Assembly (NCBI RefSeq): GCF_030816115.1
Contig: NZ_JAUSXQ010000001.1
Span: 1,240,001 to 1,304,000, forward strand
DNA length: 64,000 nucleotides
Direction: 5' to 3'
Origin: Chryseobacterium sp. W4I1
GTDB lineage: Bacteria; Bacteroidota; Bacteroidia; Flavobacteriales; Weeksellaceae
Shown: positions 27,495 to 63,970 of the stretch, piece after piece
Layout of the letters: each line of letters begins with the position of its first letter
Position numbering within the stretch: position 1 is the stretch's first letter
The notes under the pieces: model-generated
Told to the model about the DNA's origin: nothing
The model's database searches: none
What the model saw: the letters and a program-made list of their open reading frames with translations, nothing else
Position numbers and translations under genes: made by a program

Positions 27495-27667
27495 AATTAC
27501 TGTAATCCTATTAGGAGAACAACAAGCTATTAGAACGCCAATTGGAATTGACAAAAGAACAGGCTCATTTTTGAACCCTCTTAGACATAGTGTTTAAGAG
27601 GGTTTTTGTTTTCAGCAATGGATAGAGTAGTTACCTGTTAAGCTGAATTAAACAGGACTTGTATCTT

Positions 27668-28790: not shown

Positions 28791-28832
28791 GACTAATTCA
28801 GTTAAAGACAAAAGTGAAAATCACATTTACTT

Positions 28833-30341: not shown

Positions 30342-30342
30342 A

Positions 30343-31335: not shown

Positions 31336-31432
31336 ATGAGATTTCTTTTAAATACTTGTACAAAAGTATAGCAATTACATGCATTTTTGTATATTAGCAG
31401 CTAATTGTATGGTACTGTAAAAAACGTAAGTA

Positions 31433-31792
31433 ATGGGAAAAATAAAGGAAACTTCGACAAATTTTGAGAATAAAAAAATTTTAGCTGATGAATGTTCTGA
31501 AGTTTATGCAGCAAATATTATTGGTGGACAATGGTCACTTGTGATCTGTTCATGGTTAACAAACGGTAAAATGCGGTTTGGAGAATTAAAGAAATCAATT
31601 CCCAATATTACAGAACGTATGCTGACCACACAGCTTCGTAAACTTGAAGAACATAATATTATTACAAGAACTGTTTATGCAGAAGTTCCCCCTAAAGTTA
31701 TATACGAATTAACTGATATAGGCTATGAACTTAAGCCAATCATTCTTCAAATGGAACAATGGGGAGAGCGGCATAAAAAATTAAAGTTATAA
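31433..31792 (+). CDS. HxlR-family transcriptional regulator
   Basis: The 119-residue winged-helix protein contains the family core IIGGQWSLVICSWLTNGKMRFGELKKSIPNITERMLTTQLRKLEEHNIITRTVYAEVPPKVIYELTDIGYEL. A single cysteine (C18, in ADECSEVY) sits at the position that often senses electrophiles or oxidants. It is divergent from the hydrolase-ankyrin operon, so control of that operon is the natural inference. Confidence 0.88.
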   Translation: MGKIKETSTNFENKKILADECSEVYAANIIGGQWSLVICSWLTNGKMRFGELKKSIPNITERMLTTQLRKLEEHNIITRTVYAEVPPKVIYELTDIGYELKPIILQMEQWGERHKKLKL

Positions 31793-31877
31793 TATAAGAA
31801 ATTAGTTAAATTAAATATACTAATTATATAACTCATAAAACTATCATAATAAATTTTAAAGCATTACTGGAAATAAA

Positions 31878-31918
31878 TTTACGAAAGTATATAATCATTA
31901 ACGCAATGCGTAAATTTG
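31878..31918 (+). promoter_or_regulatory. Conserved promoter block, copy 1 (before the Crp-like gene)
   Basis: TTTACGAAA is followed 33 bp later (start to start) by the -7 box TAAATTTG at 31911-31918. The palindrome ACGCAATGCGT overlaps the box. The same block with the same spacing precedes the lipoprotein gene at 38596, and part of it a third relic. Confidence 0.55.
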
Positions 31919-31959
31919 AAGTTATCCCATCAAATTAAACAAAAATCTACAAAATTACA

Positions 31960-32529
31960 GTGTACAGACAATTAGAACAATATATTAAAGCAAGAACTGA
32001 AATTGACGATCAGACACTTTCGAACATTTCTTCATACTTCAAATTTATAAAGACCCCGCGGAATAAATTTCTTTTGAAAGAAGGCGAAATTTGCAAACAT
32101 TACTATTTTGTTAATAAAGGATGCATAAGACTTTTTAGTATTAATAAGGACGGAGAAGAAAAAACAAGATATTTTCATTTTGAAGATGCATTTGGAACTG
32201 CATTGCAAAGTCTAATAAATCAAAAGCCTGCATTTGAATTCATGCAGACTATAGAACCTTCGGAGTTGTTGGTAATTAACCGTGACGACTATTTTCATCT
32301 GGTAGAAACAGTTCCACAGTTTGGTTTTGTTTACAGACAAATTTTAGAATTAGCTTACATCAAATCACAAGAACGTATTTATTGTTTTCAAAGCTTCGAA
32401 GCAATAGATAAAGTTCGTTGGGCTTTGACAAATCAAAGTAAATGGCTGACAAGATTATCAAATAAGATGGTGGCATCATATTTAGGGATTACACCTCAAA
32501 CATTAAGCAGATTAAAATCAAAGATTTGA
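31960..32529 (+). CDS. Crp/Fnr-family regulator
   Basis: The 189-residue protein starts at a GTG (YRQLEQYIKARTEIDDQTL) that sits 42 nt after the -7 box. The cyclic-nucleotide-binding jelly roll includes FLLKEGEICKHYYFVNKGCIRLFSINKDGEEKTRYFHFEDAFG. The C-terminal HTH ends NKMVASYLGITPQTLSRLKSKI. The phosphate-binding cassette of true cAMP receptors is not evident, as in most Bacteroidota members. The NmrA-type gene follows and may be its target. Confidence 0.85.
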   Translation: MYRQLEQYIKARTEIDDQTLSNISSYFKFIKTPRNKFLLKEGEICKHYYFVNKGCIRLFSINKDGEEKTRYFHFEDAFGTALQSLINQKPAFEFMQTIEPSELLVINRDDYFHLVETVPQFGFVYRQILELAYIKSQERIYCFQSFEAIDKVRWALTNQSKWLTRLSNKMVASYLGITPQTLSRLKSKI

Positions 32530-32606
32530 AAATGTGAACATAGGACAATGTTTACAAAATTTACTCTTATCATCTTTGTACTTCACTAAACAATTTAAGT
32601 TCAATT

Positions 32607-33485
32607 ATGATTTTAGTAACAACGCCAACAGGCAATACGGGTTCAATGGTTCTTCAACAATTGGTAGAGCGGGGACAAAAGGTTAGAATTTTTTTGAGAG
32701 ACCCTAAAAAAATATCAGCTGAAATTTTAGAAAAAGTGGAAGTTGCAACAGGCTCCTTGCTGAATGAGGATGAATTCACAGAAGCATTGCAAGGATGTGA
32801 TACTCTTTATTTTTGTGTTCCTCAAAGCAATACCCAAGAAGATGTAAATGCCTATTATGAAGAATTTGCAACAGTGGCTTCACAAGCAATTAAAAATGCT
32901 GGTACAAGCAGAGTTATTTATTTATCTAGTGGCGGCAAAGAAAACAACCTTCAGGCAGGCCTTATAACAGCACTCCACAAGGGCGAAGATATAATCATCC
33001 GATCAGGAGCATCAGTAAGGTCATTGCGGTGTCCGGTATTCTTTGAAACCCTTTTGTATCAGATTGCATCTCTAAAAAAATCAGGAACGTTTTTCTTACC
33101 TATTGACGGAAATTACAAGTCGCCACAAATCGCCGTAAAAGACATCGCAGCAAAAGCAGTAGAATTACTAACTGATAAAACCTGGAAAGGCGTTGAAGGA
33201 GTTACAATACAAGGTCCGGCAGACATAAGCTACAATGAAATCGCATTTCAAGTGAGTGAATTAACCGGCAAGCCTTTTCATTTTCAACAAGTTTCAAAAG
33301 AGGACTATATAGAAACACTATTGGTAGAACATCATACGAGTGAAGCTTTTGCAATCTCTTTAACAGAAATGTTGACAGCAATTGGCAATGGCCTTTATGA
33401 CACGGAACCGAGAACAGAAGAAAGCACAACAAGTACAACCATTAGAGAGTGGTTAAAAGAAAATTTAGTTTCTAAAATAAATTAA
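32607..33485 (+). CDS. NmrA/SDR-type NAD(P)-binding protein
   Basis: The 292-residue protein begins with a Rossmann motif TTPTGNTGSMVLQQLVERGQKVRIFLRD and the continuation GCDTLYFCVPQSN, typical of atypical SDR proteins of the NmrA/azoreductase (QOR2) group. The tyrosine/lysine pair of classical SDRs is not clear, so it may be a redox-sensing or quinone-reducing protein. It follows a Crp-like regulator by 77 nt, the usual regulator/target layout for such pairs in this phylum. Confidence 0.82.
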   Translation: MILVTTPTGNTGSMVLQQLVERGQKVRIFLRDPKKISAEILEKVEVATGSLLNEDEFTEALQGCDTLYFCVPQSNTQEDVNAYYEEFATVASQAIKNAGTSRVIYLSSGGKENNLQAGLITALHKGEDIIIRSGASVRSLRCPVFFETLLYQIASLKKSGTFFLPIDGNYKSPQIAVKDIAAKAVELLTDKTWKGVEGVTIQGPADISYNEIAFQVSELTGKPFHFQQVSKEDYIETLLVEHHTSEAFAISLTEMLTAIGNGLYDTEPRTEESTTSTTIREWLKENLVSKIN

Positions 33486-33634
33486 AGCCAACCAATCAAT
33501 ATAAACCGGTGAAATGGCATTAATGAAAGATTATATATATTTATAGTTTTTAGTCTTCAAACATTCTGCAAATACGACTAGATTGTAAATAGCTGGATGT
33601 TTGGTATATTCTTAAAGTTGTAAAACGTCAAAAG

Positions 33635-33649
33635 TCTCAAAAAACGATA
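33635..33649 (+). repeat. Cassette leader motif, copy 2
   Basis: TCTCAAAAAACGATA, an exact consensus copy. It lies after the NmrA-type gene in a 356-nt spacer and ahead of a broken lipoprotein start. Confidence 0.55.
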
Positions 33650-33723
33650 TGTTGATCAGTAAAATAATAAGAAATAATATCTATTAAACTATCCGAATAT
33701 TCAAAATAACTAAAAAAATAAAT

Positions 33724-33808
33724 ATGAGAAAAATAATATTGAGTCAATTTGCTTGGTTTTAATATGCTGTTTATCGTATTCTAGTTGCTTTCCCCAATTT
33801 AAACCTTA
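33724..33808 (+). pseudogene. Lipoprotein signal-peptide relic
   Basis: ATG at 33724 starts MRKIILSQF. After a one-base shift the frame reads CLVLICCLSYSSCFPQFKP and stops. This looks like a lipoprotein leader whose mature part is lost. It may be the missing front of the DUF4440-like fragment that follows. Confidence 0.4.
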
Positions 33809-33841
33809 AAATCCGGTTTCAAAAGAATTATTAACACGATT

Positions 33842-34126
33842 ATGAAGAATGACAGTTTGTTTTTGAGTGCTGCCAATCATGAAGAGACCATTGATCATTT
33901 TACGAGAGTGGCGAAAAACTATGAATATACCCGCAGGGTTCCTGTGGCAGAGAGTGTGGAAATATATCCGATTAAATATTACGGAGCCATCCAAACCGGA
34001 ATCCATCAATTTTGCCGTTTGGAAAATAAAGTTCTTATTAATTGTGGAACATTTAAGCTTGTAAACATTTGGAAACAAACTCCTGATGGTTGGAAAATAT
34101 CAAGAGTAGCTAGCTATGGATATTAA
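33842..34126 (+). pseudogene. DUF4440/NTF2-like fragment
   Basis: The 94 codons from ATG 33842 read ANHEETIDHFTRVAKNYEYTRRVPVAESVEIYPIKYYGAIQTG, then FKLVNIWKQTPDGWKISRVASYGY, the C-terminal two thirds of a DUF4440/SnoaL-like cone fold. Normal members are about 130-160 residues with a signal peptide, so this is N-terminally truncated. The relic leader at 33724 is a possible former start. Confidence 0.6.
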
Positions 34127-34263
34127 ATGTATTTTTACTGTAATAGTGAGTAAATAGTACCAATGACTTGTATCCAGTTTGTAAATGGTTTTGTATTTAG
34201 TACTGTAATTACTGTGATTGCAGTTGTTGGTTTATTATAAAATATAACTAATGCCATTCATAT

Positions 34264-34270
34264 AAGGAGA
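34264..34270 (+). promoter_or_regulatory. Strong Shine-Dalgarno sequence, unusual here
   Basis: AAGGAGA lies 5 nt before the ATG at 34276. Almost no other gene in the window has such a site, as expected in Bacteroidota, so this gene may be foreign. A near copy (TATAAGGAGAATTC) precedes the relic at about 36955. Confidence 0.5.
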
Positions 34271-34275
34271 ATCTA

Positions 34276-34827
34276 ATGAGAAAAAGAAATTACATTATCA
34301 TCGGAGTTTTGACATTCGTATTAATAGTTGCGTTCGGTGTATGGTACTTCCTTTTACTAAGCGGATTGAGCGGTATGGGAAGCCCGACAGGAGGGAGGGG
34401 GTCTAACTACCCTTATTTTATTACAACAGAAACTATGGTAGTTAAAAAAATAGTGTTGCCTAAAGGAACAAAGCTGATCTATGAAGAACAGTTTTTTAAG
34501 AAAGGGCAACAAGACAGAATAATGAATGAACAAAAGCTTACCAATATAGAGTTACCAAAAGGAAAAACAATAGATTGGGGTGGAGTACCTGTTTATATGA
34601 TTATAAAATTCTTTAATCCTGAAATGAAGGGATTTTCGGTCTATTCAGATTTTAGCCAATTAAAAGATGGCAAAAAAACTAAGTTTTCCGAAATATGGCA
34701 AAGTTGTGGTAGTGATTTAGGGGTTTTAGTGAAAAATCAGGATGATTGGACTTTTAACACAAAAAACATTGCTAATGTTTTGGATTGCAGTGTGAACTTT
34801 CAGCGCTATTTTAAGGAAGATCCCTAA
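34276..34827 (+). CDS. Membrane-anchored hypothetical protein, 183 aa
   Basis: An N-terminal helix (YIIIGVLTFVLIVAFGVWYFLLLSG) is followed by a Gly-rich linker and a beta-rich extracytoplasmic domain with IVLPKGTKLIYEEQFFKKGQQDR and LPKGKTIDWGGVPVYMIIKFFN. I do not recognise the family. Two cysteines near the end (SCGSDLG, LDCSV) could form a disulphide. The Shine-Dalgarno site is atypical for this genome. The surroundings are decayed, so this may be recently imported cargo. Confidence 0.55.
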   Translation: MRKRNYIIIGVLTFVLIVAFGVWYFLLLSGLSGMGSPTGGRGSNYPYFITTETMVVKKIVLPKGTKLIYEEQFFKKGQQDRIMNEQKLTNIELPKGKTIDWGGVPVYMIIKFFNPEMKGFSVYSDFSQLKDGKKTKFSEIWQSCGSDLGVLVKNQDDWTFNTKNIANVLDCSVNFQRYFKEDP

Positions 34828-34889
34828 CAGCAGCAGTTTCTTGATAAACTTTATAACGAGTCCAAAAAAGTGGACAAAGCCAAATGAAG

Positions 34890-34980
34890 TGAAAAATTCT
34901 GTTTCTCTATTTTTTTATTTACAGTGCTAATAGCTTGCAAAAATGATAAAAGTAAAGAACTGAAAATAAGTAATCAGTAG
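34890..34980 (+). pseudogene. Lipoprotein leader relic
   Basis: The frame reads KFCFSIFLFTVLIACKNDKSKELKISNQ before a stop. It is a lipoprotein signal with lipobox LIAC but no start codon in frame and no mature domain. Confidence 0.4.
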
Positions 34981-35018
34981 CCTTTAAGATTTTTTTAGGA
35001 TAGGATTAAAAAAAATAG

Positions 35019-35059
35019 TGCAATTGCATATACTATAGATTATGCAATACGTAAATTTG
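35019..35059 (+). promoter_or_regulatory. Conserved promoter block, copy 2 (degenerate)
   Basis: The segment ends in ATGCAATACGTAAATTTG with the -7 box TAAATTTG at 35052-35059. It aligns with the blocks at 31878 and 38519, although the upstream TTTACG element is altered. It precedes the DUF2625 pseudogene. Confidence 0.45.
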
Positions 35060-35089
35060 GATAATAGCGGCAATTTTAGAAGCCCATAC

Positions 35090-35541
35090 AATATGACAAA
35101 ACTTTTGACAATTATTATATTATCCCGTACTCCCATTAACAGCTTATGGACAAACAAATATGCGTTCTATTGATGAATTAATAAGAGGTAAAGATCCAGG
35201 TTGGGCTCTTGTAAAGAATGGATAGACTCTGTCAAAAACAAAGTGGAAATCTTGCCTGTTGATACAAATAAAGCAAAGGATGCCTTATATAAGACCCAAG
35301 TTACAACCCGCTCTCCAATGGGCCAATTGTATATATGACAGGCGGACTTTTAGTTGACAATGGTTGGATAAGAATTCTTGGCTCGGGTAGTAACAAGTTA
35401 AACAGGTCACTGCCAGAATGGAATAAGGGAAAAGTATTTAAGGATTTTGGACAATCGGCACCCTATCTTTTAATTGCTGACGATGCAGTGGGTGGTATTT
35501 TTATTCTTAATGGAGGTGGACTTGGTATTACGGAAAATTAA
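35090..35541 (+). pseudogene. DUF2625-like protein, frameshifted
   Basis: Spread over two or three frames one can read RSIDELIRGKDPGWALV, then WIDSVKNKVEILPVDTNKAKDALYKTQVTTRSPMG. From 35335 an intact stretch follows: TGGLLVDNGWIRILGSGSNKLNRSLPEWNKGK and DDAVGGIFILNGGGLG. This is the DUF2625 pattern. Frameshifts near 35215 and 35330 and loss of the C-terminus show it is dead. Confidence 0.65.
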
Positions 35542-35877
35542 AAGAGACAATGAGACTTATTTATGGAAAAGGTTGCATCTTCATTTAACAAATTATGAAT
35601 ACTCAAAGTGCGTTGAAAATGTTGTGATTTATCTTGAAGGACATAAAAAATCTCCGCTTCAACTTTCGTTTCGAAAAGAGGGTAATTTAACCCTTAAAAC
35701 AGATATAGAAAAAGAAAAATGGCGGTAGGTTATCCCGATGATGGAGTAATTTGGTTGTATAAGTATGAATCTCCTTTACCTAATAATAAACCATACCCAG
35801 TTAATGAGCAACAAACTGTTGATGTCAATTTGACGGCCAACTGTTATAGCCCAGCTAGTTCGATATTTTCCTTATAA
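35542..35877 (+). pseudogene. Unidentified coding relic
   Basis: Two consecutive frames carry protein-like sequence: NYEYSKCVENVVIYLEGHKKSPLQLSFRKEGNL (to 35728), then from 35719 MAVGYPDDGVIWLYKYESPLPNNKPYPVNEQQTVDVNLTANC. They look like pieces of one frameshifted gene of unknown family. Up to 36240 nothing else is legible. Confidence 0.35.
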
Positions 35878-36240
35878 AGATTGGAACCAAAAGAAAGTAC
35901 AAGGCCATACATTATTGAAGATGTGTTGAGATTCCTTGAGATAATTGCATTGCCTAAAGGTATAAAATGAGTAACGAGAAACCTTATTTTATATTATTGT
36001 AACCTGGATGATAGAATAAATGGCTTACTTATATGTAGTGATTAGAAATGTGATGCCCTAATCGTTACATTTATCTAATAAATAAATCATGAATAGAGTC
36101 AACTTCTTGCAGCTGAAAAACGTATGATAGACAAAAATACATCTCAGAAAAGGATAGTGTAATAATTCATATTAAAATGTTGGTTTCTATTATTAATAAA
36201 CTACCTTGTTACAGTTATTTATTCAAGAACACTTTCTAAT

Positions 36241-36837
36241 ATGTTAATTAACGAAGAATTATTATATCAATACGGTGCAGTCACACAAAGCCTCCAAAAA
36301 CAAGAATATCTTTTCCATGAGGGCGATGTACCAAAAAGCTATTACCAGATTATTGAAGGCAGAGTAAAGTTATCTCACAATAACGAAGAGGGAAAAGAGT
36401 TTATTCAAACTATCTTAACAGAGGGGCAAAGTGCCTGTGAGCTCTTGCTTTTTATTGACTACAATTATCCCGTTAGTTGTGTTGCGCTTGAGAATAGTAC
36501 AATTTTAAAACTCTCGAAACCTAACTTTGAAAAACTGCTAGACGATCATCCTACAATTTCTCGGGATCTCAATGTTTTTTTTTCGGGTAGATTATATCAA
36601 AAGCTTATCATGCTCCAGAATAATGCATCATTAAACCCTGAAATTAGGCTTAAAGGTATTATGAGCTATTACAAGAGTTTTAATCAAAGTGACAAAAAAT
36701 ATTCTTTCGAAATACCTTTTACAAGACAGGAATTAGCTTCATTTACAGGTTTACGCGTAGAAACAGTCATTCGGGCTTTTAAAAAGATGGAGGTGGATAA
36801 AATTGTTAGGATCGAGAACAGAAAAATTTACTATTGA
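36241..36837 (+). CDS. Crp/Fnr-family regulator, second copy
   Basis: The 198-residue protein has a cyclic-nucleotide-binding fold (KQEYLFHEGDVPKSYYQIIEGRVKLSHNNEEGKEFIQTILTEGQSACE) and a C-terminal HTH with FTRQELASFTGLRVETVIRAFKKMEVDKIVRIENRKIYY, so a real Crp-type DNA-binding helix. It is only distantly similar to the regulator at 31960. No intact neighbouring target gene is visible; it sits between pseudogenes. Confidence 0.85.
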   Translation: MLINEELLYQYGAVTQSLQKQEYLFHEGDVPKSYYQIIEGRVKLSHNNEEGKEFIQTILTEGQSACELLLFIDYNYPVSCVALENSTILKLSKPNFEKLLDDHPTISRDLNVFFSGRLYQKLIMLQNNASLNPEIRLKGIMSYYKSFNQSDKKYSFEIPFTRQELASFTGLRVETVIRAFKKMEVDKIVRIENRKIYY

Positions 36838-36928
36838 TAAATGAAGATTTAGAGCTAGATTTTCTAATTGTATTGCTGGCGAAGATGGAAAAACTTATCA
36901 AATAGACAATTAATAAGTCAATACAAAA

Positions 36929-36943
36929 TCTCAAAAACTGATG
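36929..36943 (+). repeat. Cassette leader motif, copy 3 (degenerate)
   Basis: TCTCAAAAACTGATG matches the consensus at 12 of 15 positions. It lies just before the DUF2971-like pseudogene, as the better copies do before intact genes. Confidence 0.4.
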
Positions 36944-36949
36944 ATTGAA

Positions 36950-37711
36950 AAACTATAAGGAGAATTCTTAAAGTTGGAAAATTTGAACACATTCATTCAT
37001 TGTACGAAGATGGTTTAGTTTATTGCAATCCAATGGAATTTTTTAAAATATGTGAGAAGGAAGATGCCCGATTTGATAAATCTAAAGCTGCAACAAATAT
37101 TACGTAAGTTTCTCAAATTATCTTGCAAGGACATAATGGTCAATAATTTAGATTTTCTAAAGAACCAAAAGAAAGGAGAAATAAAATTAAAATCGGCTTT
37201 TAAATATGATCAATATACGTGATTTCAATGAAAATTTGTTTTGTTGTACAGCGGTCTATCAAGATAATACAAAGATTTTATTGAATTTGATGAAAGATTT
37301 GATGACTTCGGGTATACAATCTTGTTAATCAAAAAACCAATGAAATTAGTTCTCGCTTTACAAGATTGTCTAAAAAGCATGAATCTAGGTTATAAATGAT
37401 ATTGTAAAATATTACGATAAGAAAAGCCATGATGGAAAGCTTGATTTTTTTTCAAAACATAACGAGTATTCATTTCAAAATGAATTGAGGTTATTTATCG
37501 AAAATGATCATCATAAGCCTATAACTTTACAGCTTCCACTTTAATATCTAAATATCAATTGGAAATAGACCTTCTTAGTGAAATGAAGGAGGAATCCACT
37601 AATGAACTTCATCAGGCAGAAGTGATATTAATTACATACTTTGAGCAACAAATTAAGGAGATACAAGATGTCATAGAATCTTTAGAAGGAAAAGGAAAAA
37701 TTAAAAAATAA
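36950..37711 (+). pseudogene. DUF2971-like protein, multiply frameshifted
   Basis: Protein-like sequence jumps between frames: LKVGKFEHIHSLYEDGLVYCNPMEFFKICEKEDARFDKS at the start, FCCTAVYQDNTKILLNLMKDLM in the middle, YDKKSHDGKLDFFSKHNEYSFQNELRLFIENDHHKP, and a helical tail ending LEGKGKIKK. The layout resembles DUF2971 or related defence-island proteins. At least four indels separate the pieces. Confidence 0.5.
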
Positions 37712-37712
37712 A

Positions 37713-37727
37713 TCTCAAAAAACGATC
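37713..37727 (+). repeat. Cassette leader motif, copy 4
   Basis: TCTCAAAAAACGATC matches the consensus at 14 of 15 positions. It starts 2 nt after the DUF2971-like pseudogene. No gene follows it; 37728-38595 is mostly empty DNA. Confidence 0.5.
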
Positions 37728-37776
37728 CGCTGAGTAAGGGTTGTTTTAATAAGTGATAATTGGAGAATTAGGTTTT

Positions 37777-37902
37777 CTATGGGTTGATAATGGGTAACAG
37801 TAAGTAACATTGCGTTATTCTTAATTCTTGCCATTCATCTTCCCAATAGTTACTCGTTTCTTTTGGTTTCCCCTTAATCCAATTACTGTTTTGATTACTC
37901 AT
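37777..37902 (-). pseudogene. 41-codon open frame, probable N-terminal relic
   Basis: An ATG at 37902 starts MSNQNSNWIKGKPKETSNYWEDEWQELR, which looks like a real protein start, then ends after a hydrophobic stretch. I do not recognise it; it may be the front of a lost gene. Confidence 0.3.
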
Positions 37903-38048
37903 ATTTAATCCAATTCTTTTTGTAAATTTTTAATTTTTACAAATCTTTAATCTTTCCTAAAATAGTTCCAAAATAAAATGTTTATTAATTAACAGCTACT
38001 GCAAAATCACGTGCGATCATTATATTTTTTCATACCGATTTGATTAGA

Positions 38049-38076
38049 GAAGCTCGGCATACATATGCCGAGCTTC
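38049..38076. terminator. Long perfect hairpin
   Basis: GAAGCTCGGCATA and TATGCCGAGCTTC form a 13-bp stem around two bases, followed by TTTGTTG. It works as a terminator in either direction by structure, yet lies in a gene-free stretch (37903-38518), so it probably belonged to a lost gene or is an RNA hairpin of another kind. Confidence 0.55.
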
Positions 38077-38518
38077 TTTGTTGAGATAAAATTCTCAGTT
38101 TGAAAATGTTTTTTTCATGGTTTTTAGAATCATGTCAAATATAGTAAAATATTTTCACTATTGAGTGTTATATTTAATTAAAATTAAATATAATTCATTA
38201 TTTATCAATTAAATGTAACATATTATTAAATTTCGTGGTAGCCATAGCAGTATCTTTAATTAACATCTAACGCTTTTTTGTTTCATTTTACATATTGTTG
38301 ATATGCTAGTTATCATTATCTTTTACGTTTCATTTTTTCCCTTGATAAAGATTAAAAAAACACTATAGATTTTATTCGAATAATGATTATATTTTATCTC
38401 TATGTATTTATAGAAAAAATAAAACATTCGTCAAGGCAAAGAAAAATTAAGATGAAAAATATTTATAATCACTTAATAATAAATCTTAAAATAAATTTAA
38501 ATTAGGGGCAGAAATAGC

Positions 38519-38559
38519 TTTACGAAAATTATATTGGATTGACGTAATGTGTAAATTTG
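38519..38559 (+). promoter_or_regulatory. Conserved promoter block, copy 3 (before the 38596 lipoprotein)
   Basis: TTTACGAAA at 38519 and the -7 box TAAATTTG at 38552-38559 have exactly the 33-bp spacing of copy 1, with ACGTAATGTGT overlapping the box. Downstream sequence (GAATGTTATC) is also shared with copy 1. Confidence 0.55.
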
Positions 38560-38595
38560 AATGTTATCTGAAATCTTAATAAATACTATCATACA

Positions 38596-39330
38596 ATGAA
38601 ATTATCGTTTATCATAATTTTACTTTTATCTTTCATTTTTGTTAATTCTTGTAAAAACAAAAGTATAAATCCAACTTCTCAAATTGAGCAAGAAAGCATA
38701 AACTATGTTCTTGACAAATTCCCATTTATTGACAAAAAGTTAGAAAAAATAAAAAAAGTAGAATTTGATTCACTAGCAATTTCTTTGTATCGAAACGTAG
38801 ACAAAACAGATTATGATGAAATTTTAGTTTTTCAGAAAGGAAATAACTCTTATGCAATTCCTTTTTTTTCAAATATGTATTATGACTTTTGGAATTTTAA
38901 AAATGAAAATGAAAAAAGTCAATTTCCTACGACAAATACAACTTTTGAAAAAGAACTCGAAAAATCTGCAAGCTACTTGAATCTAAATTCAGACGAAAAA
39001 CAACAAATTTTTATTCAGCTAATCACTAGTATTTTAAATACAGAAGATATGCTGGAAAAGAAGCCACAAATGTTCGAAGATTTTGTTCTATTTTCTCCAA
39101 GAAAATCAAAATATAAAGATGAAGAAGCAAATGATTGCCTTAAAAAAACCAAGGAATTATATAAACAAATAATTGAAGACAGAATAAATGGTATTAGACC
39201 ATCTTACATTTTAGATAAAGAAAATGGACGAGTTTACAAATTATTCAACGAATCCAAAAATAGTAATGAATATATTTTGAGGATTGAAACATATAGAGTT
39301 GATTGTTACACAACACTTTATGAAATGTAA
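38596..39330 (+). CDS. Lipoprotein of unknown function, 244 aa
   Basis: The signal peptide ends at a lipobox cysteine (SFIFVNSCKN). The mature part is charged and mostly helical, with FEKELEKSASYLNLNSDEKQQIFIQLITSILN in the middle and ENGRVYKLFNESKNSNEYILRIETYRVDCYTTL at the end. I do not recognise the family. It has its own promoter block and is followed by an attC-like palindrome and a leader motif, so it may be the cargo of a mobile cassette. Confidence 0.6.
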   Translation: MKLSFIIILLLSFIFVNSCKNKSINPTSQIEQESINYVLDKFPFIDKKLEKIKKVEFDSLAISLYRNVDKTDYDEILVFQKGNNSYAIPFFSNMYYDFWNFKNENEKSQFPTTNTTFEKELEKSASYLNLNSDEKQQIFIQLITSILNTEDMLEKKPQMFEDFVLFSPRKSKYKDEEANDCLKKTKELYKQIIEDRINGIRPSYILDKENGRVYKLFNESKNSNEYILRIETYRVDCYTTLYEM

Positions 39331-39344
39331 AAAACTGCAATAAC

Positions 39345-39477
39345 ATTTGGATTTGGCAATAGAGGGGGCGGAAAGTTTATAATTCAAGTTTTGTGTTTCA
39401 GTTGAAGTTGTATTTAGTAGAAAGTTTCTGCTTCGATTTGCCCGCAATTGCCAATCCCGAAACGAGGCAGATTTTGG
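39345..39477. repeat. Imperfect long palindrome, attC-like, degenerate
   Basis: The left arm TTTGGATTTGGCAAT is matched by a right arm whose complement reads TTCGGGATTGGCAAT, about 130 bp apart. A TAACA lies at the left edge, but the matching TGTTA on the right is lost. It follows the 38596 gene directly and precedes a leader motif, as the better site at 59354 does. Confidence 0.4.
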
Positions 39478-39522
39478 ACATATTTCACGACAGATTTTAG
39501 ATTGAAAATAGATATAAAAAAA

Positions 39523-39538
39523 TCTCACAAAATGATTA
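39523..39538 (+). repeat. Cassette leader motif, copy 5
   Basis: TCTCACAAAATGATTA resembles the consensus and is closest to the copy at 59499 (TCTCACAAAAAGATAA). It follows the attC-like palindrome; a minus-strand gene now occupies the next stretch. Confidence 0.45.
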
Positions 39539-57284: not shown

Positions 57285-57448
57285 TTGTGATGGGTTGGTT
57301 ATTAAAAATCATATCCAACTAAATTAAAACATTTATATTAAATAGTTTTATGGGATTCCGTAAAAATTCACTTTATGATGAATTAGTTGTGATTTATCTT
57401 TCCCCTTTGAAATTTATTTTTTAAAATGGTGGTATTTTGAGGTCTTAC

Positions 57449-57556: not shown

Positions 57557-57943
57557 ATGAAAATAGGATATGCAAGGGTTTCGACCAAAGATCAAAATTT
57601 GGATTTATAAATTGAAGCGTTAGAAAAAGCAGGTTGTGAGAAAATTTATCAGGAGAAAATTTCAGGCGCAACAAAGAATCGTCCTGAACTTGATAAGGTG
57701 ATTGAACAGGCAGGATTGCAGTCTGCGAGAGCGAGAGGAAGAGCCGGAGGAAGACCAAAGGGCTACACAGCGGAGACAATATCCAAGCTGTTAATTTTGC
57801 GCTCCATTTATAAAGATCCTACAAAACGCCCGGAAGATATTTATAGGCCTTTGGGACTGACCAGGGCAACATTTTATAGGTATGCTAAGATTCTGGATAA
57901 TCATACGGATGAAGAAATAAAGAAAATGGCAAATAAAAAATAA
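57557..57943 (+). pseudogene. Serine recombinase/resolvase with nonsense codon and internal deletion
   Basis: From ATG 57557 the resolvase start MKIGYARVSTKDQNLDL keeps the catalytic serine. An in-frame TAA then replaces the expected Gln codon (IEALEKAGC follows). After RPELDKVIEQ about 90 residues of the catalytic domain are missing, and the frame continues AGLQSARARGRAGGRPKGYTAETISKL with the complete DNA-binding HTH and tail (DEEIKKMANKK). It resembles a Tn3/Hin-type resolvase; it cannot catalyse recombination. A second copy of its last codons occurs at 62527. Confidence 0.8.
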
Positions 57944-58217: not shown

Positions 58218-58619
58218 ATGAAAATAGAAATTGATATATCTGATGATAAACTTCAAAATCTCAGTATTACAGCAAAAACTGAGATAAGCAAAGTTTCAAA
58301 ATCCTACATAGAAGATGTTCTTGATGAAGCAAGTCGAATTGAAGAAAGTCGAAGAACTTCTAACGGCAATCCTGAAATTACAGCAGCTATAATTAATGAT
58401 GCTGTGGTTTTTGCTAAGAATTATGGCATTAGAAAAAAGAAACCAAAGAAACAGATATTTATGCAAATCCTTGCATTTGTAGCTTCAACTTTCACTGGAG
58501 GATTGTTTGATACAGATAAGTTTAAAGATACTGGTTATGTTTTACTTTTTCTTGTAATTTTCTTAGTTGCAGTAGTTGCAACAGTTTACTTAATTCTTAA
58601 CGACAACAACAATGAATAA
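58218..58619 (+). CDS. Membrane protein with histone-fold-like N-terminus, 133 aa
   Basis: The first 70 residues are predicted helix-strand-helix: SKVSKSYIEDVLDEASRIEESRRTSNG, then PEITAAIINDAVVFAK. This is the spacing of a histone fold (long helix, loop with a short strand, EITxxxI-type final helix). A basic stretch RKKKPKKQ follows, and one or two membrane segments (FMQILAFVASTFTGG, YVLLFLVIFLVAVVATVYLIL). Its last 8 nt overlap the next gene, which has the same plan, so both act together. I know no named family; the fold assignment is inference by eye. Confidence 0.6.
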   Translation: MKIEIDISDDKLQNLSITAKTEISKVSKSYIEDVLDEASRIEESRRTSNGNPEITAAIINDAVVFAKNYGIRKKKPKKQIFMQILAFVASTFTGGLFDTDKFKDTGYVLLFLVIFLVAVVATVYLILNDNNNE

Positions 58620-59349
58620 CGAAAATATTAATTCAAAACTAACTCCGTCTGCTAAAGAAGCACTGAACGAGTTAACAGAAGACTTTAAAGAGAATTTAAT
58701 CGAAAAAGCATACACAATTGCTAAAGAAAGAAATACTGCTAATCGTGAAATTTCGCTTAGAGATATTTTAGAAGCTCAACAACCTTCTCAAAATATTATT
58801 GAAAAGCAAAAGTATACAGACTACCGAAGAAAAAGATGGACAATGCTAATTTCATTTAGTGGTGCTATTTATGCAATCGCTGGTATATTATTATATTTAT
58901 TTCAAAACAAAAAATTTTCAATTGAAAACGATTTAGGTTTGATAATAGCAGTTATTGGAATACTGCTAACATTATTAGCTTTTATATACGGGCAATTAAT
59001 AAATAAGAGACAATATCTCTACACTACTACAACGACGACTACAAACAATTTTTCTGAAATTGATAGTTTTGAAATTGTAAAAAGATGGCAGATTATAGAG
59101 CAATTAACTGTTTCTGTAATGAAAGAGAAGAACATAAGTGATTCTAAATCTAATTCTGTTAGCCAAGTAATAAAATATTTAACCGAAAATTTCACAAAGT
59201 CCGAAGTTGATTATCTCAATATTAAACAATTGCTACAATCAAGGAATAAAATTTTACATGAAGGTTATAGCTTAAGTGATGCCGAAAAGAAAAAATATAT
59301 TGAAATTGCTGACAATCTAATTGAAAAACTTGAACATGCAAAAAAATAA
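58612..59349 (+). CDS. Membrane HEPN protein with histone-fold-like N-terminus, 245 aa
   Basis: Residues about 8-55 read LTPSAKEALNELTEDFKENLIEKAYTIAKERNTANREISLRDILEA, again a histone-fold pattern. Two membrane helices follow (76-97, 108-130), then a TTTTTTTNN linker and a cytosolic helical domain. The latter contains R211-N-K-I-L-H216, the RxxxxH motif of HEPN domains (LLQSRNKILHEGYSL), whose members are often RNases in toxin-antitoxin, abortive infection and CRISPR-associated systems. Overlap with the 58218 gene indicates a two-gene system. An attC-like palindrome follows directly. Function as a membrane-bound RNase effector is inference. Confidence 0.65.
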   Translation: MNNENINSKLTPSAKEALNELTEDFKENLIEKAYTIAKERNTANREISLRDILEAQQPSQNIIEKQKYTDYRRKRWTMLISFSGAIYAIAGILLYLFQNKKFSIENDLGLIIAVIGILLTLLAFIYGQLINKRQYLYTTTTTTTNNFSEIDSFEIVKRWQIIEQLTVSVMKEKNISDSKSNSVSQVIKYLTENFTKSEVDYLNIKQLLQSRNKILHEGYSLSDAEKKKYIEIADNLIEKLEHAKK

Positions 59350-59353
59350 ATCT

Positions 59354-59490
59354 GCTGGTAACAGCCGTTTGGCGAGGTTGTGAATTTTGTGATAAATTCA
59401 CGTTTTCGTTCCGCAAGAAATTTTATCCATAACGGAAAATAAAGGTTACGAAGTTCGCAATCTCGCCAAGCGGCGGAATGTTATAATTGC
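59354..59490. repeat. Integron attC-like palindrome
   Basis: The left arm contains TAACAGCCG and TTGGCGAGGTTGTGAA. The complement of the right arm contains TAACATTCCG and TTGGCGAGATTGCGAA. The arms are about 130 bp apart, with mismatches and extra bases on one side and a second, inner pair (CGTTTTCGTT / AACGGAAAAT). Outer TAAC and GTTA resemble the core sites of attC. It sits directly after a stop codon and before a leader motif. Confidence 0.6.
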
Positions 59491-59498
59491 TACTAAAA

Positions 59499-59514
59499 TC
59501 TCACAAAAAGATAA
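59499..59514 (+). repeat. Cassette leader motif, copy 6
   Basis: TCTCACAAAAAGATAA lies 8 nt after the palindrome and 6 nt before the ATG at 59521. It is thus located where a ribosome-binding site would be. Confidence 0.5.
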
Positions 59515-59520
59515 CTAACA

Positions 59521-60189
59521 ATGCTTCCAATAGATATATTTAAAATCATAAATTCTGATGAATATAATAATTTAAATAATTATTTAATGTCATTTGAAAA
59601 TTTTTTAAATATTGAGTTAAAAAAAATTAGCGATAATCAAGAAAAATTAATAAAAGGAGAGCAAGAAAATTTAGAAAATAATAATTATTCGAACGAAATT
59701 GAATTGTTTAATGAACGGCACTATTATTATGGTACAATATTCACTAGCAATTTTAGAATTACACTTTTAAGTCTAATAATTTCCTCACTTGAAAATATAT
59801 TAAAAGATATTTGTTATCAATATAAAATAATTAAATATTCTCCTTTTGATATTAATGACCTAAAAGGAAATAGTGACATTGAAAAAGCTAAATTATATCT
59901 GACTAAAGTTTCAAATAAAAATATTGGAAAAATTCCTAAATGGTCAGAAATAAATGATTATAAATTTATAAGAAATAAATTCACTCATCAAAATGGGAGA
60001 GTTTCTAGCAAATCAAGTGATGTGGCTCAACTTAGGGCAATTTCAGCTAAATATAATGGAATCAAACTATTTGAATCAAATGATGAAATTAGAATTTGGA
60101 TAAGTGATAAAATTTTTTGTAAGAACGCACTAAATGATTCATATAGTTTTATAAACCACCTCATTGATGCTTTAAAAGATGATCAATAA
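59521..60189 (+). CDS. HEPN-like protein, 222 aa
   Basis: The helical soluble protein has TLLSLIISSLENILKDICYQYKIIKY in the middle, as in HEPN four-helix bundles, and then WSEINDYKFIRNKFTHQNGRV with R151-N-K-F-T-H156 (RxxxxH). HEPN proteins of this size include cryptic RNases of abortive infection systems and RiboL-PSP-type toxins. It is flanked on both sides by leader motifs and has no antitoxin-like partner other than the small proteins that follow. Nuclease activity is inference. Confidence 0.65.
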   Translation: MLPIDIFKIINSDEYNNLNNYLMSFENFLNIELKKISDNQEKLIKGEQENLENNNYSNEIELFNERHYYYGTIFTSNFRITLLSLIISSLENILKDICYQYKIIKYSPFDINDLKGNSDIEKAKLYLTKVSNKNIGKIPKWSEINDYKFIRNKFTHQNGRVSSKSSDVAQLRAISAKYNGIKLFESNDEIRIWISDKIFCKNALNDSYSFINHLIDALKDDQ

Positions 60190-60235
60190 GTTCTTATAAT
60201 ATCAGCAAGCCGAGAACATTTCAGAATCAATCAAG

Positions 60236-60250
60236 TCTCAAAAAACGATA
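60236..60250 (+). repeat. Cassette leader motif, copy 7
   Basis: TCTCAAAAAACGATA is an exact consensus copy that ends two bases before the ATG at 60253. A short stretch with GCAAGCCGAGAACATTTC before it may be a collapsed palindrome. Confidence 0.6.
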
Positions 60251-60252
60251 AT

Positions 60253-60558
60253 ATGACAGAAAATTATATTCAATATGCAGGAGGCTATCAAAAAGACAAT
60301 ATTGAAAAAAAGGATATAGTAAAAGCTATAGCAGACATTCAATTAATGGATGACGAACATGGAGCATTCTGGGTTTCAGTTATAACCAATGATGAAAATG
60401 TTATTGAAGTAAATAAAGATTTATCACTTTCTGTAATTTTAGAAGGACAACAAACCAACTATCAGGCTAAAGATTGGACCGAAGTCACAGAAATTTTTAA
60501 GCTATTATTAATTGAAAAATTTGATGAAATAGCCGAGAGAGTAAATAGAAATAAGTAA
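60253..60558 (+). CDS. Small hypothetical protein, 101 aa
   Basis: The soluble product has alternating strands (GAFWVSVITNDENVIEVNKDLSLSVILEG) and a C-terminal helix (WTEVTEIFKLLLIEKFDEIAERV). This shape is common among small immunity proteins. No family is recognised. Leader motifs lie on both sides, so it is a cassette of its own. Whether it neutralises a neighbouring HEPN protein is unknown. Confidence 0.55.
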   Translation: MTENYIQYAGGYQKDNIEKKDIVKAIADIQLMDDEHGAFWVSVITNDENVIEVNKDLSLSVILEGQQTNYQAKDWTEVTEIFKLLLIEKFDEIAERVNRNK

Positions 60559-60560
60559 AG

Positions 60561-60577
60561 ATCAATAAACGATAAAA
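60561..60577 (+). repeat. Cassette leader motif, copy 8 (shortened)
   Basis: ATCAATAAACGATAAAA keeps the AAACGATA half of the consensus. It lies between the stop at 60558 and the ATG at 60587. Confidence 0.4.
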
Positions 60578-60586
60578 TATAAATCA

Positions 60587-60883
60587 ATGCACTACAATGA
60601 GAAAACAATAATTGATACAATAAAAAATTACTATCCTATTGAGATGGAAATTGAATACAAAAATTTACCTCTTAAATTTTTTGTGAAAAAAAATAAACAA
60701 CATTTTTTAGCAGTTGAATTTTTTAAAGCCTCAGAACTATCTGCAATTTATTTATTTCGTTCAGATAATATAGAAAATGCGACAGAATTTAGTGAGGATT
60801 TTAATAATAGAGATGTTGCATTTCAAATCGATGATTTAAAGACTTTAGAAACAATTTTGAATGCAAATAGTTTAGTTGGCTAA
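60587..60883 (+). CDS. Small hypothetical protein, 98 aa
   Basis: The soluble product contains EIEYKNLPLKFFVKKNKQHFLAVEFFKASELSAIYLF and ends FQIDDLKTLETILNANSLVG. No family is recognised. It has no signal or membrane segment. The tight position between two leader motifs makes it a compact cassette of about 300 bp. Confidence 0.5.
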   Translation: MHYNEKTIIDTIKNYYPIEMEIEYKNLPLKFFVKKNKQHFLAVEFFKASELSAIYLFRSDNIENATEFSEDFNNRDVAFQIDDLKTLETILNANSLVG

Positions 60884-60887
60884 TTAA

Positions 60888-60902
60888 TTTCAAAAAACGA
60901 TA
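60888..60902 (+). repeat. Cassette leader motif, copy 9
   Basis: TTTCAAAAAACGATA differs from consensus only in one base. It precedes by about 50 nt a -7 box TAAATTTG (60949-60956) for the DUF4468 relic. Confidence 0.5.
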
Positions 60903-60969
60903 CTATTCCTAAATATGGATAACCGTAAAATTTCTTTCAGGTTATGCTTAAATTTGCAAAAAAATAAAT

Positions 60970-61564
60970 ATGAAGAAAATCTTTACACTTTCATTAATAG
61001 CTATTTCATCTGTTTGTTAGTGCGCAAAACGCGTCATATGACACAATTGTAAATAATAATCTAGCAAAAAAAGATAATTTTATAAATGCTGTAAATTGGT
61101 CTTCTATAAAAAATAAGGAGTTAAATCAAAAAGAGATTATTAGTAAAGACCAGGATTTAGGCTTTGTAAACACTAACATTTTGGCAAAAATACATGAGGA
61201 AGCTACAGTTGAATACTATTACAGTAATACAATAAAGATCGACAGTAAAGATAAAAAATATAAAATATCCATAATTAATCCTGTTATTCGTGTTAGAATG
61301 GGCAACGCTGATTTATCAGCGCTTTCAATTGATATCTTAAAAAAATATAGGAATTATATCACGAGCTTGTTAGACCTAATGAAAGACCAATTTGATAGTA
61401 AGATGGAATGGAGTTATGATGACATGGTCAAGATCTCTAAAATACAAAACTTACCAATTGAGCAAAAACAAATTCTAAAGACACTGATTGATAATGCTGT
61501 AAATTTAGATAAGAAATTATTTAGTGATTGTATAAAAACAATGAAAAATGACAATAACTGGTAG
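60970..61564 (+). pseudogene. DUF4468-like secreted protein, frameshifted in the signal peptide
   Basis: ATG 60970 starts the signal MKKIFTLSLIAISS and soon stops at TAG. Shifted by one base near 61009 the frame reads FVSAQNASYDTIVNNNLAKKDNFINAVNWSSIKNKELNQKEI and continues through YYYSNTIKIDSKDKKYKISIINPVIRVRMG to a natural end at 61564. These strands match DUF4468 proteins, periplasmic and of unknown role. Only the leader is broken, so this may be a recent change or an assembly error. Confidence 0.7.
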
Positions 61565-61612
61565 CTCTTTGGTTTAAAACCAGTTATAAAACAAATCCAA
61601 AACGAAGTAATT

Positions 61613-62476
61613 ATGCTCGATATTGAAAATCCAAATGAATCCTTAAAAGAAATTAAAGAAAAATTTTTAAGATTACATAATAGGTTTTTAGCTATTGCTA
61701 TGGATTACAAATATTATATAAATTCTAATATTTCTGACCAAGAAATTTATAAGCTTAGAGATAATGTCATTTTTAGATTACAAAGTGCCAGATTTCATTT
61801 TGAGTTACTTTTAAACCATCATCACTATATAGATCATAACATAAAAGAGATACATAAAAGTCAGGATCCGATTTTGGGCGGAGGTATTGAGCTTCAAGTT
61901 TATCAAATTAGAGCAACTGAAGAAATTTATTCTCTTTTTGATAGTTTAGTTTACCACTTATGCTCAAATTTTGATTATTTATTTAGACTGATTAATTTTA
62001 TTCATGGAAAAACTGACCTTGTCCAACCAAAGTGGAATCTATTTAAGTCAGACAAAAACGTAAAAAATAATATTTATTGCAGTAAAGAACTTATTGAAGC
62101 TTTAGATATTCATGACGAAAAATTTGTTTATCCTTTGATAAAACATCGCTCATTTCTTATTCATAATGAGTATGCGATCGGAGGTCATCAAATCTTTCTC
62201 AATGATTTAAAAACAAGGTTTCTAGTCACCGAAACGCTGAAAAATCATTTTCCAGAATTAACTGTAGAGTTTGAGGAAAAAGAAATGAGTATAAGTTTTG
62301 CAGCCAAATGGTTAATTGACAAGACTTTTGAAACTATAACCGAAGTTTTATTTGAGATTCGTGATGATATTGTCAGAAACCGTAAAGAGGTATTACCATT
62401 GTTTTTTTCTATAAGTTCAGACAATACAATGGAATCAACATCAGTTTATTATTGGGGAGACAGAAAACAAATTTAA
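61613..62476 (+). CDS. HEPN protein, Cthe_2314-like, 287 aa
   Basis: The helical protein has RATEEIYSLFDSLVYHLCSNFDYLFRLINFIHG and later KFVYPLIKHRSFLIHNEYAIGGHQIF with R179-S-F-L-I-H184, the HEPN RxxxxH. The whole layout resembles what I know as Cthe_2314-type HEPN proteins, but I cannot confirm that without a search. It lies 48 nt after the DUF4468 relic, in the same direction. An RNase role in stress or phage defence is inference. Confidence 0.65.
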   Translation: MLDIENPNESLKEIKEKFLRLHNRFLAIAMDYKYYINSNISDQEIYKLRDNVIFRLQSARFHFELLLNHHHYIDHNIKEIHKSQDPILGGGIELQVYQIRATEEIYSLFDSLVYHLCSNFDYLFRLINFIHGKTDLVQPKWNLFKSDKNVKNNIYCSKELIEALDIHDEKFVYPLIKHRSFLIHNEYAIGGHQIFLNDLKTRFLVTETLKNHFPELTVEFEEKEMSISFAAKWLIDKTFETITEVLFEIRDDIVRNRKEVLPLFFSISSDNTMESTSVYYWGDRKQI

Positions 62477-62512
62477 GAGCCAGTTACAATAGTGAACAAT
62501 AGATAAAGTAAG

Positions 62513-62527
62513 TCTCACTAAACGATA
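62513..62527 (+). repeat. Cassette leader motif, copy 10, fused to a recombinase tail
   Basis: TCTCACTAAACGATA joins directly to the last codons of a second serine recombinase copy. This junction marks the right edge of the cassette series. Confidence 0.55.
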
Positions 62528-62565
62528 CAAATGAAGAAATAAAGAAGATGGCAGTTAAAAAATAA
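62527..62565 (+). pseudogene. Serine recombinase C-terminal fragment
   Basis: Twelve codons TNEEIKKMAVKK and a stop repeat the end of the resolvase pseudogene at 57943 (TDEEIKKMANKK) with few base differences. The homology begins right at the leader motif, so the rest of this copy was replaced or deleted there. Confidence 0.65.
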
Positions 62566-62632
62566 TATTTACGCAAATAGGCTGCGTAGTAGGGGTGTAT
62601 TTTTGTATTAAATAAATTATAATTCCCGCAAA

Positions 62633-63970
62633 ATGACAGACAAAGATAAAATTGAAGATAATTCTTCGTTTGAAGAATTTAGAAATAATTTAAAGGGGGG
62701 AAAGTCAGTAAAAAAAATTGTATCACTCTTAGCACCTTTTAGTTCACGAGCTAAAGAAATTTTGGATGCTTTTGAAAATTTTGATGAGATTGAAAAACAA
62801 TTCGACGAGATTTCCAAAAGTCCTGACCAATTTAATAATTATTTCAGCGGACTTGGATGGATTGCTCACGAGTCAGGTAATCACGATCTGATTATGGAAT
62901 GCATTAATTTGGCAGAATCTGACAATATAAAAGCTGCTGAGGAGAAACTAGCGGATCACTATACTTCCGAGGAAATACAATGGCTGGTAACTTCAACATA
63001 CGGTGTTCCTGAGTTTAGAAAGCGAAATAATTTAATTAATGCAGCCTTTGAAGATACAAAAGCCCAAAGATTTCACTCTGCCATCCCATTACTGTTAATG
63101 ATTATTGATGGTACTGTCAATGACATCAGTAAGAGCAAAGGCTTTTTTGCGGAAAATACTGATCTTACTGCGTGGGATTCTATTGCTGCGCATAGTACAG
63201 GTCTCTCCAAGCTTAGAGACATTTTAAATGTGACACGAAAGTCGACAACTACTGAAGAGATATTTTTCCCCTACAGAAATGGAATATTGCATGGGAGAGA
63301 TATTTCTTATGCTAATAAATATGTTGCTGGCAAAGCATGGTTAACATTATTTGCTATTAATGATTGGGCAAAAGCTTTGCAAAAAAATAAAGAAAACTCA
63401 CCCAAGGAGACTAAGAAGCCTACACTGAAAGAGGCACTATCAAACTTGAAAGAAACTACTGATAAATACAAACTGCAGAAAGAAAAAAGAGCGGAAACTG
63501 ATAAATTCATGAATCATTGGAAATCCAGGAAACCTATCGCAAATATAGATTTTCCGGCTCAGGGAACAGAGGAAGAATATACAGAATTTACGCCAGAGCG
63601 AGATGCTGTTTACTTTTTAACAAATTGGCAGAAAGGCAATTACGGTCAAATGGCTAAACAGATTTGTTTATTTTCCGATGAATTTAATATGGGTAAAGAA
63701 GCTGGAAGAGTTCGAAAAGTTTTTGACCAAAAGAATCTGAAAACCTTTGAAATACTATCAGTTGAACATCAAGCGCCTGCAATTGCAGAAGTAAAGGTAA
63801 AAGTAATTGTATTATTTAACGAAATAGAATATGCAAAAGAAATAATGTTGCGAATGCTTTATCAGAATGAGCAACGAGAAAATATGGTGTATGGCCAAAG
63901 CGGAGGTGTTTGGAGGTATATGGATTCTTTCTTTTTTCATAAAATCGAAATGCTGGATTGGGATTATTAA
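62633..63970 (+). CDS. HEPN protein with NTF2-like C-terminal domain, 445 aa
   Basis: The N-terminal 100 residues are helical (KIVSLLAPFSSRAKEILDAFENFDEIEKQ). A HEPN-like bundle covers about 135-250, with RFHSAIPLLLMIIDGTVNDISKSKG and EIFFPYRNGILHGRDISYANKYVAGKAW, where R215-N-G-I-L-H220 is the RxxxxH motif. A charged linker leads to a C-terminal NTF2/cystatin-type domain (ERDAVYFLTNWQKGNYGQMAKQI to AEVKVKVIVLFNE). It follows the recombinase fragment and is the longest of the four HEPN genes. A ligand-sensing effector is plausible but unproven. Confidence 0.65.
   Translation: MTDKDKIEDNSSFEEFRNNLKGGKSVKKIVSLLAPFSSRAKEILDAFENFDEIEKQFDEISKSPDQFNNYFSGLGWIAHESGNHDLIMECINLAESDNIKAAEEKLADHYTSEEIQWLVTSTYGVPEFRKRNNLINAAFEDTKAQRFHSAIPLLLMIIDGTVNDISKSKGFFAENTDLTAWDSIAAHSTGLSKLRDILNVTRKSTTTEEIFFPYRNGILHGRDISYANKYVAGKAWLTLFAINDWAKALQKNKENSPKETKKPTLKEALSNLKETTDKYKLQKEKRAETDKFMNHWKSRKPIANIDFPAQGTEEEYTEFTPERDAVYFLTNWQKGNYGQMAKQICLFSDEFNMGKEAGRVRKVFDQKNLKTFEILSVEHQAPAIAEVKVKVIVLFNEIEYAKEIMLRMLYQNEQRENMVYGQSGGVWRYMDSFFFHKIEMLDWDY

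Follow-up and report, generated by a model that had tools for sequence, protein, structure and literature searches.

HEPN-type genes of Chryseobacterium sp. W4I1 as probable cargo of an integron-like cassette array headed by a serine recombinase

Organization of the locus

The stretch analysed here, from now on referred to as the window, comprises 64,000 nucleotides of Chryseobacterium sp. W4I1 (contig NZ_JAUSXQ010000001.1, positions 1,240,001 to 1,304,000). Close to its right end lies a plus-strand series of genes, four of which encode proteins with an RxxxxH motif, interspersed with small genes and with copies of a short directional site and preceded by a broken serine recombinase gene. We consider it likely that the HEPN-type genes among them are cargo of a gene-cassette array headed by a serine recombinase, integron-like but not an integron. 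The features are as follows (aa, amino acids; ORF, open reading frame; genes are named below by their start position).

57432..57445, minus: half-site in inverted orientation ahead of the recombinase gene, with 2 mismatches to GTNTTNTGAGATTT
57557..57943, plus: broken serine recombinase, corresponding to residues 1-51 and 125-201 of a 201-aa plasmid relative, with about 73 codons gone between
58218..58619, plus: small membrane protein of 133 aa, first gene of a conserved pair, 27% identical to its Lactococcus partner
58612..59349, plus: 245-aa protein with a histone-fold/AAA-lid-like N-terminus, two predicted transmembrane helices and a probable C-terminal HEPN domain (RNKILH)
59496..59512, plus: cassette site 1 (AAATCTCACAAAAAGAT), left edge of a cassette shared by three genomes
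59521..60189, plus: putative HEPN cassette gene (RNKFTH), 222 aa
60233..60249, plus: cassette site 2, exact
60253..60558, plus: 101-aa cassette gene, no family assigned (ORF, profile search)
60557..60573, plus: degenerate site, 2 mismatches, possible boundary
60587..60883, plus: 98-aa cassette gene, no family assigned (ORF, profile search)
60885..60901, plus: cassette site 3, 1 mismatch
61181..61564, plus: 127-aa cassette gene, no family assigned (ORF, profile search)
61613..62476, plus: 287-aa cassette gene with an RSFLIH motif
62510..62526, plus: cassette site 4, exact
62525..62565, plus: 41-bp copy (88%) of the recombinase gene 3' end directly after site 4, same junction in locus L071
62633..63970, plus: putative HEPN-type cassette gene of 445 aa (RNGILH), in the same cassette as a DUF4209 gene past the window
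27477..39536, plus: second array with the same sites, at 27477 (1 mismatch), 33632 (0), 36139 (1), 37710 (1) and 39520 (2)

A directional 17-bp site recurs along the arrays

The motif TCTCANNAAACGATA is repeated along the locus in a single orientation, and with at most one mismatch five sites fall within the 11.5-kb locus where 0.02 would be expected. The consensus of 111 sites, drawn from 20 fetched regions together with own-genome and plasmid stretches, is AARTCTCA(A/C)AAAACGAT, directional and 17 bp long; selection covered its positions within TCTCANNAAACGAT, while the AAR at its flank and the second A emerged unselected. Beyond these 17 bp nothing is conserved on average. Across the genus, the exact 18-base site AARTCTCANNAAACGATA is present in 61 copies in 34 of 118 genomes, compared with a single copy of the reversed pattern, and the own genome holds 19 sites at up to one mismatch versus 7 for the reversed pattern. 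A slightly narrower pattern matched 98 stretches of genome_contigs, 53 from Chryseobacterium and 45 spread over many groups. Since about 30 matches to this pattern are expected in random DNA, the scattered matches outside the genus look like chance. The site pattern is also found in 5 viral contigs. Rfam searches of six loci at the gathering threshold gave no match.

Only 2 of the 111 sites lie inside ORFs of at least 120 aa, and coding sequence around them runs predominantly with the sites (30,283 aa versus 5,127 aa against). A second count over 27 loci yielded 95 cassettes with a median length of 1,213 bp, holding 131 forward and 22 reverse ORFs.

Several sites are preceded by about 150 bp that are kept between cassettes with different genes and are partly palindromic (L025:13757-13911, the L061:11345-11500 region, L060, L065, L073 and L059). 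This hairpin-like stretch was considered as an attC-like element and rejected: one such stretch of about 136 nt folds no better than its shuffles (z -0.64), and the stretch is absent before most sites. Separately, recombinase ends (L189/L077, L061, L191) or sites (L059 at 14492, L071 at 10606, L072 at 8894) are repeatedly followed by a sequence resembling TACGCnAATAGATTGCGTA and then TATATTTTTG, which may be a promoter or regulator site; it is also seen at 62565-62620 of the window. Another repeat family of about 800-1000 bp, apparently unrelated to the sites, lies in or near arrays in L026, L062, L063 and L067.

Common DNA begins and ends at the sites

The cassette structure is well supported by the positions at which DNA common to different loci starts and stops. 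The gene at 59521 has 92-93% DNA identity to a copy on a C. shandongense plasmid and to a copy in another genome of the genus (G116). The three cassette copies have differing upstream flanks and all part at the same base pair, AAATCTCA. Comparison of 26 stretches with one another gave 189 local matches, of which 7 start and 24 end at sites in both partners, whereas 54 shifted-site controls gave a mean of 0.19 starts (maximum 5) and no ends (mean 0, maximum 0). These breakpoint events are pairwise, overlapping and not independent and were therefore counted by eye as about 6 start and about 9 end families. On one side the common sequence runs up to the site, on the other it runs from just after GAT. 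Two of the end matches, with identities of 97% and 94%, link one array of this genome to another, and the second array of the window (27-40 kb) has ends in common with a third array elsewhere in the genome (L026).

These breakpoints bear on two explanations that do without a cassette system. The locus could be an ordinary defence island, its HEPN genes brought together through selection and homologous recombination and its motif a promoter or regulatory element; relatives of the HEPN genes do adjoin type I restriction genes in other genomes, and 18 of 105 sites lie within 50 bp before a start codon. Common DNA, however, ends at the motif on both sides and is flanked by unrelated sequence, the gap between a site and the next ORF has a median of 204 bp and is thus no promoter-like constant, and the cargo extends beyond defence, all of which makes a defence island very improbable. 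The units might also be one-ended transposon or rolling-circle products with one conserved end, which would match a conserved, directional sequence on one side of each unit only. Yet no transposase common to the units was found, in searches that included no dedicated HUH transposase search, and the recurrent partner is PF00239; we see only a slim chance that such products account for the arrays.

A small serine recombinase heads many arrays

Many arrays are headed by a 201-aa serine recombinase of family PF00239, intact relatives of which pass the PF00239 Resolvase cut-off (for example in G142, G584 and G657). In this genome, PF00239 matched the broken recombinase of the window and nothing else. 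The array that it heads is therefore probably static here, unless an enzyme acts on it in trans.

Within the 242 kb downstream of 24 recombinase genes, 70 sites stand in recombinase orientation, none in reverse and none in the control, and 19 of the 24 loci hold a site, 13 of the 24 having been known or expected beforehand to do so. The other 11 loci, picked by their recombinase alone, include 6 with sites, 21 forward and none reverse. Genus-wide, an exact same-strand site lies within 25 kb downstream of 13 of 52 close recombinase places (a count from which 2 of 93 recombinase places, with identities of 60% and 68%, were excluded), compared with 3 upstream and none on the opposite strand. Two of the upstream cases are C-terminal fragments behind an array and the third is the own-genome copy, behind which the other array of the window is located. 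Of the 34 genomes with an exact site, 21 contain a close recombinase, compared with 14 of the 84 lacking the site (Fisher p 3e-6). All 23 recombinase upstream regions examined contain the inverted half-site, about 125 bp upstream, as opposed to 3 of 23 for the reversed-pattern control. Further, copies of the recombinase 3' end are found immediately behind sites (window 62513, L071 8858), a hint that the entry site may lie near this end.

Site recurrence, polarity, breakpoints at the site and co-location with the recombinase are direct observations, and we infer from them that this recombinase probably moves the cassettes. A number of points weigh against this reading. The loci behind the breakpoint, consensus, coding-direction and 27-locus counts were mostly picked for holding sites, and one shifted control gave 5 starts versus 7 observed. 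Between the recombinase and the first recognisable site lie 1-10 kb. To the right of AAAC the two kinds of site differ, with CACCG at the end of the inverted one and GAT at the end of the cassette sites, so they are mismatched across the presumed crossover. On plasmids of Sphingobacterium, Rhizosphaericola and Emticicia, related recombinases stand without a forward site at up to one mismatch (Emticicia has one in reverse), for which reason the enzyme may simply be a plasmid resolvase; since the upstream half-site also accompanies relatives on other-genus plasmids lacking arrays, plasmid resolution may have been its original role. Of the 34 site-bearing genomes, 13 have no close recombinase. 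Lastly, the genomes compared showed neither cassette circles nor excision nor any change between strains.

Some of these points favour a different enzyme. The array could be real and its cassettes moved by another recombinase, either a tyrosine recombinase such as XerC/D or a serine paralog of about 46% identity, the close enzyme being the resolvase of the host plasmid or element. This would fit the 13 genomes with arrays and no close recombinase as well as the related plasmid recombinases without arrays; the paralog lies upstream of sites in G661 and G188, and 4 of 13 chosen genomes have an array with a PF00589 gene no more than 25 kb away. Against it stand the strict polarity downstream of the close recombinase (70 versus 0) and the half-site common to all 23 upstream regions. 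Of the same 13 genomes, which were partly chosen for having the recombinase, 11 carry PF00239 on the array contig no more than 25 kb away (upstream of the sites in 10), whereas PF00589 is that near in 4 and has no fixed place. Overall, we regard movement by another enzyme as unlikely.

A tyrosine integrase gene stands 2 kb away from one array head in G584 (G584:C2:4949970), and some arrays may ride on integrated elements.

Proposed mechanism and comparison with known systems

In the model that we favour, with this serine recombinase acting on the arrays, each cassette would hold a single gene or a few, for the most part oriented alike, and would end in a 17-bp directional site within which crossover takes place. 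A small resolvase/invertase-type enzyme, carrying an inverted half-site copy in its own upstream region, would head the array and most likely insert and excise cassettes by site-by-site recombination. Cassettes would accrete downstream of the recombinase, as in an integron but via a non-homologous enzyme. They would circularise, the circles joining within AARTCTCAMAAAACGAT, and the 3' end of the recombinase gene is perhaps the entry site. HEPN cassettes may act as abortive-infection or toxin-type RNases, and the HEPN genes would stand side by side because they are cargo of one cassette array.

Integrons are the textbook system for gene-cassette assembly and, to our knowledge, are all built on one tyrosine integrase family. 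The arrays described here resemble them in being headed by a recombinase and composed of mostly one-to-few-gene cassettes in one orientation, each ended by a site, in carrying mixed accessory cargo and in occurring also without an adjacent recombinase; tandem arrays of exchangeable, uniformly oriented cassettes are found in both. They differ in that the head gene is a PF00239 serine recombinase and not the tyrosine integrase IntI, which is not seen at the array head (PF00589 as given above), and in that the site is 17 bp long without conserved surroundings on average; the conserved ends and fold of attC were not found, canonical attC core boxes not being part of the model searches. The array probably works like an integron and, by its head enzyme, is not one. 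A Chryseobacterium genome paper of 2026 applied IntegronFinder and reports no integron (PMC13063519).

The 201-aa PF00239 enzyme is similar to Tn3 resolvase and to recombinases of the Hin/Gin type, and the conserved sequence upstream of it resembles a recombination region of its own. Serine resolvases and invertases of plasmids and transposons act on one or two fixed sites, whereas dozens of minimal sites here bound exchangeable genes. Staphylococcal cassette chromosome (SCC) elements and pdif modules share the tandem accretion of cargo at repeated short sites. SCC elements are large and have their own large serine recombinase (Ccr), while pdif modules rely on the tyrosine recombinases XerC/D and dif-like sites.

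On balance, we lean towards a second, independently evolved kind of integron. Its small serine recombinase would probably stem from a plasmid resolvase and would capture and shuffle Chryseobacterium cassettes at a 17-bp double-stranded site; the resulting arrays, of up to a dozen or more cassettes, would bring together anti-phage genes and other accessory ones. If so, cassette assembly was invented independently, integron finders built on IntI and attC would miss such arrays, and it would be explained how unrelated defence genes, such as the HEPN genes, come to stand together. A literature search, outside of which most subscription papers and preprints fell, returned no recognised description of serine-recombinase cassette arrays.

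HEPN-type proteins of the locus

An earlier note on this DNA had described four unrelated HEPN proteins in a row, and their four RxxxxH motifs are real, in plus-strand ORFs with the starts it had placed. HEPN character has support for 58612, 59521 and 62633 from profile, model or conserved residues, while 61613 has the motif alone. In residue shuffles of the same protein, R[NDHS]xxxH arises by chance at frequencies of 0.011 (58612), 0.021 (59521), 0.139 (61613) and 0.078 (62633); the RSFLIH of 61613 is weak taken alone, as shuffles give the motif 14% of the time. The proteins at 59521, 61613 and 62633 form separate blastp families; 58612 is outside that clustering. The genes do form one plus-strand series, but "in a row" is loose wording because small genes are interleaved among them.

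For 59521, R151, N152 and H156 are invariant in an alignment with 4 of the 5 relatives found (n=5, identity down to 25%), and there is a weak match to PADLOC RTasHEPN (E 0.012). This invariant RNxxxH supports a HEPN-type protein, as do the invariant R215 and H220 of 62633, aligned with 5 of 11 relatives found (n=6, identity down to 22%). The aligned family of 62633 spans Bacteroidota, Actinomycetota and Pseudomonadota; 62633 had no family match in profile searches and no phage match. For 61613, profile searches gave no HEPN family match, no relative was found and, among 197 genomes of the family, only the own genome matched. Its structure model is poor (predicted local distance difference test, pLDDT, 51), so that a Foldseek list without a HEPN entry is no evidence against HEPN.

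A fifth HEPN-type gene is located just beyond the window end (L003:9189-11012, 607 aa, RNNIAH). It matches PF13910 DUF4209, which we take to be a HEPN family, with an E-value of 1e-8 and 35.4 bits versus a cut-off of 22.3, and likewise forms a family of its own in the blastp clustering.

Further clustered HEPN-type genes, with a Cthe2314-like HEPN and the motifs RNSYIH, RNADIH and RNKIVH, were seen in L014 and L016, from genomes of the same family. In L014 they adjoin type I restriction genes.

The 58218/58612 pair recurs with the same gene order and the same 8-bp overlap on a Lactococcus plasmid (NZ_PP589708.1, L017:4568-5657), an overlapping two-gene unit thus seen across phyla. Protein 58612 matches PF18735 HEPN_RiboL-PSP at E 7e-4 and its Lactococcus relative (motif RNKIVH) at E 1e-5, both under the curated cut-off. 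In a low-confidence model, the last 100 residues of 58612 align best with HEPN structures, supporting a predicted C-terminal HEPN. The related-locus search of genome_contigs yielded no relative of 58612, and neither did that of viral_contigs; among 197 family and 395 phylum genomes only the own genome matched, and neither 58612 nor its Lactococcus relative had a phage match. HEPN toxins (MntA-HepT; the RiboL-PSP and DUF4209 families) resemble 58612 in the predicted C-terminal HEPN with RNxxxH, and DUF4209 itself occurs past the window. They differ from 58612 in that it has an additional histone-fold/AAA-lid-like N-terminal part, two predicted transmembrane helices and a small membrane protein as its partner. 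A histone-like fold fused to transmembrane helices has been reported for prokaryotic transmembrane histones (Schwab et al. 2024, PMC11390915), which 58612 would resemble in both predicted features; the main text of that paper does not contain the word HEPN.

Cassette cargo

Profile searches with 115 cassette proteins gave matches to 96 Pfam and 59 PADLOC families, with 1-2 members for each of the first 25 Pfam families. Among the listed families are AbiTii, Abi_alpha, YhcG, SoFic, PD-T4-9 A and C, PDC-S02 and PDC-S47, but also HxlR, AraC, beta-lactamase and phytochrome domains, and many are non-defence. R[NDHS]xxxH is found in 14 of 113 cassette protein families, compared with a shuffle mean of 3.6 (maximum 8) and 2 in reversed sequences; 4 of the 14 come from this locus. 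As the motif is over-represented and other families are mixed in, HEPN-like proteins appear to be a favoured cargo and not the only one. The idea of an island defined by HEPN genes alone was dropped for this mixed cargo. The suggestion of a "mobile store" of RNase effectors fits in its first part, given separate cassettes whose common DNA breaks at recurrent sites, and is too narrow in its second. Most of the cassette genes have no family, and the set deserves to be screened for an anti-phage role.

The C. shandongense plasmid array (NZ_CP033916.1, L025 7873-19506) holds two Abi-family genes and follows an AAA ATPase and UvrD helicase pair, presumably Gabija-like.

Other features of the window

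The region upstream of the array (43577-50601) encodes two long proteins of the RHS type (DUF6443, RHS repeat) together with a protein sorted by the type IX secretion system (T9SS). A DUF3945/DUF4099 gene, which we take to be of a type known from Bacteroidota mobile elements, is located at 52514-53818.

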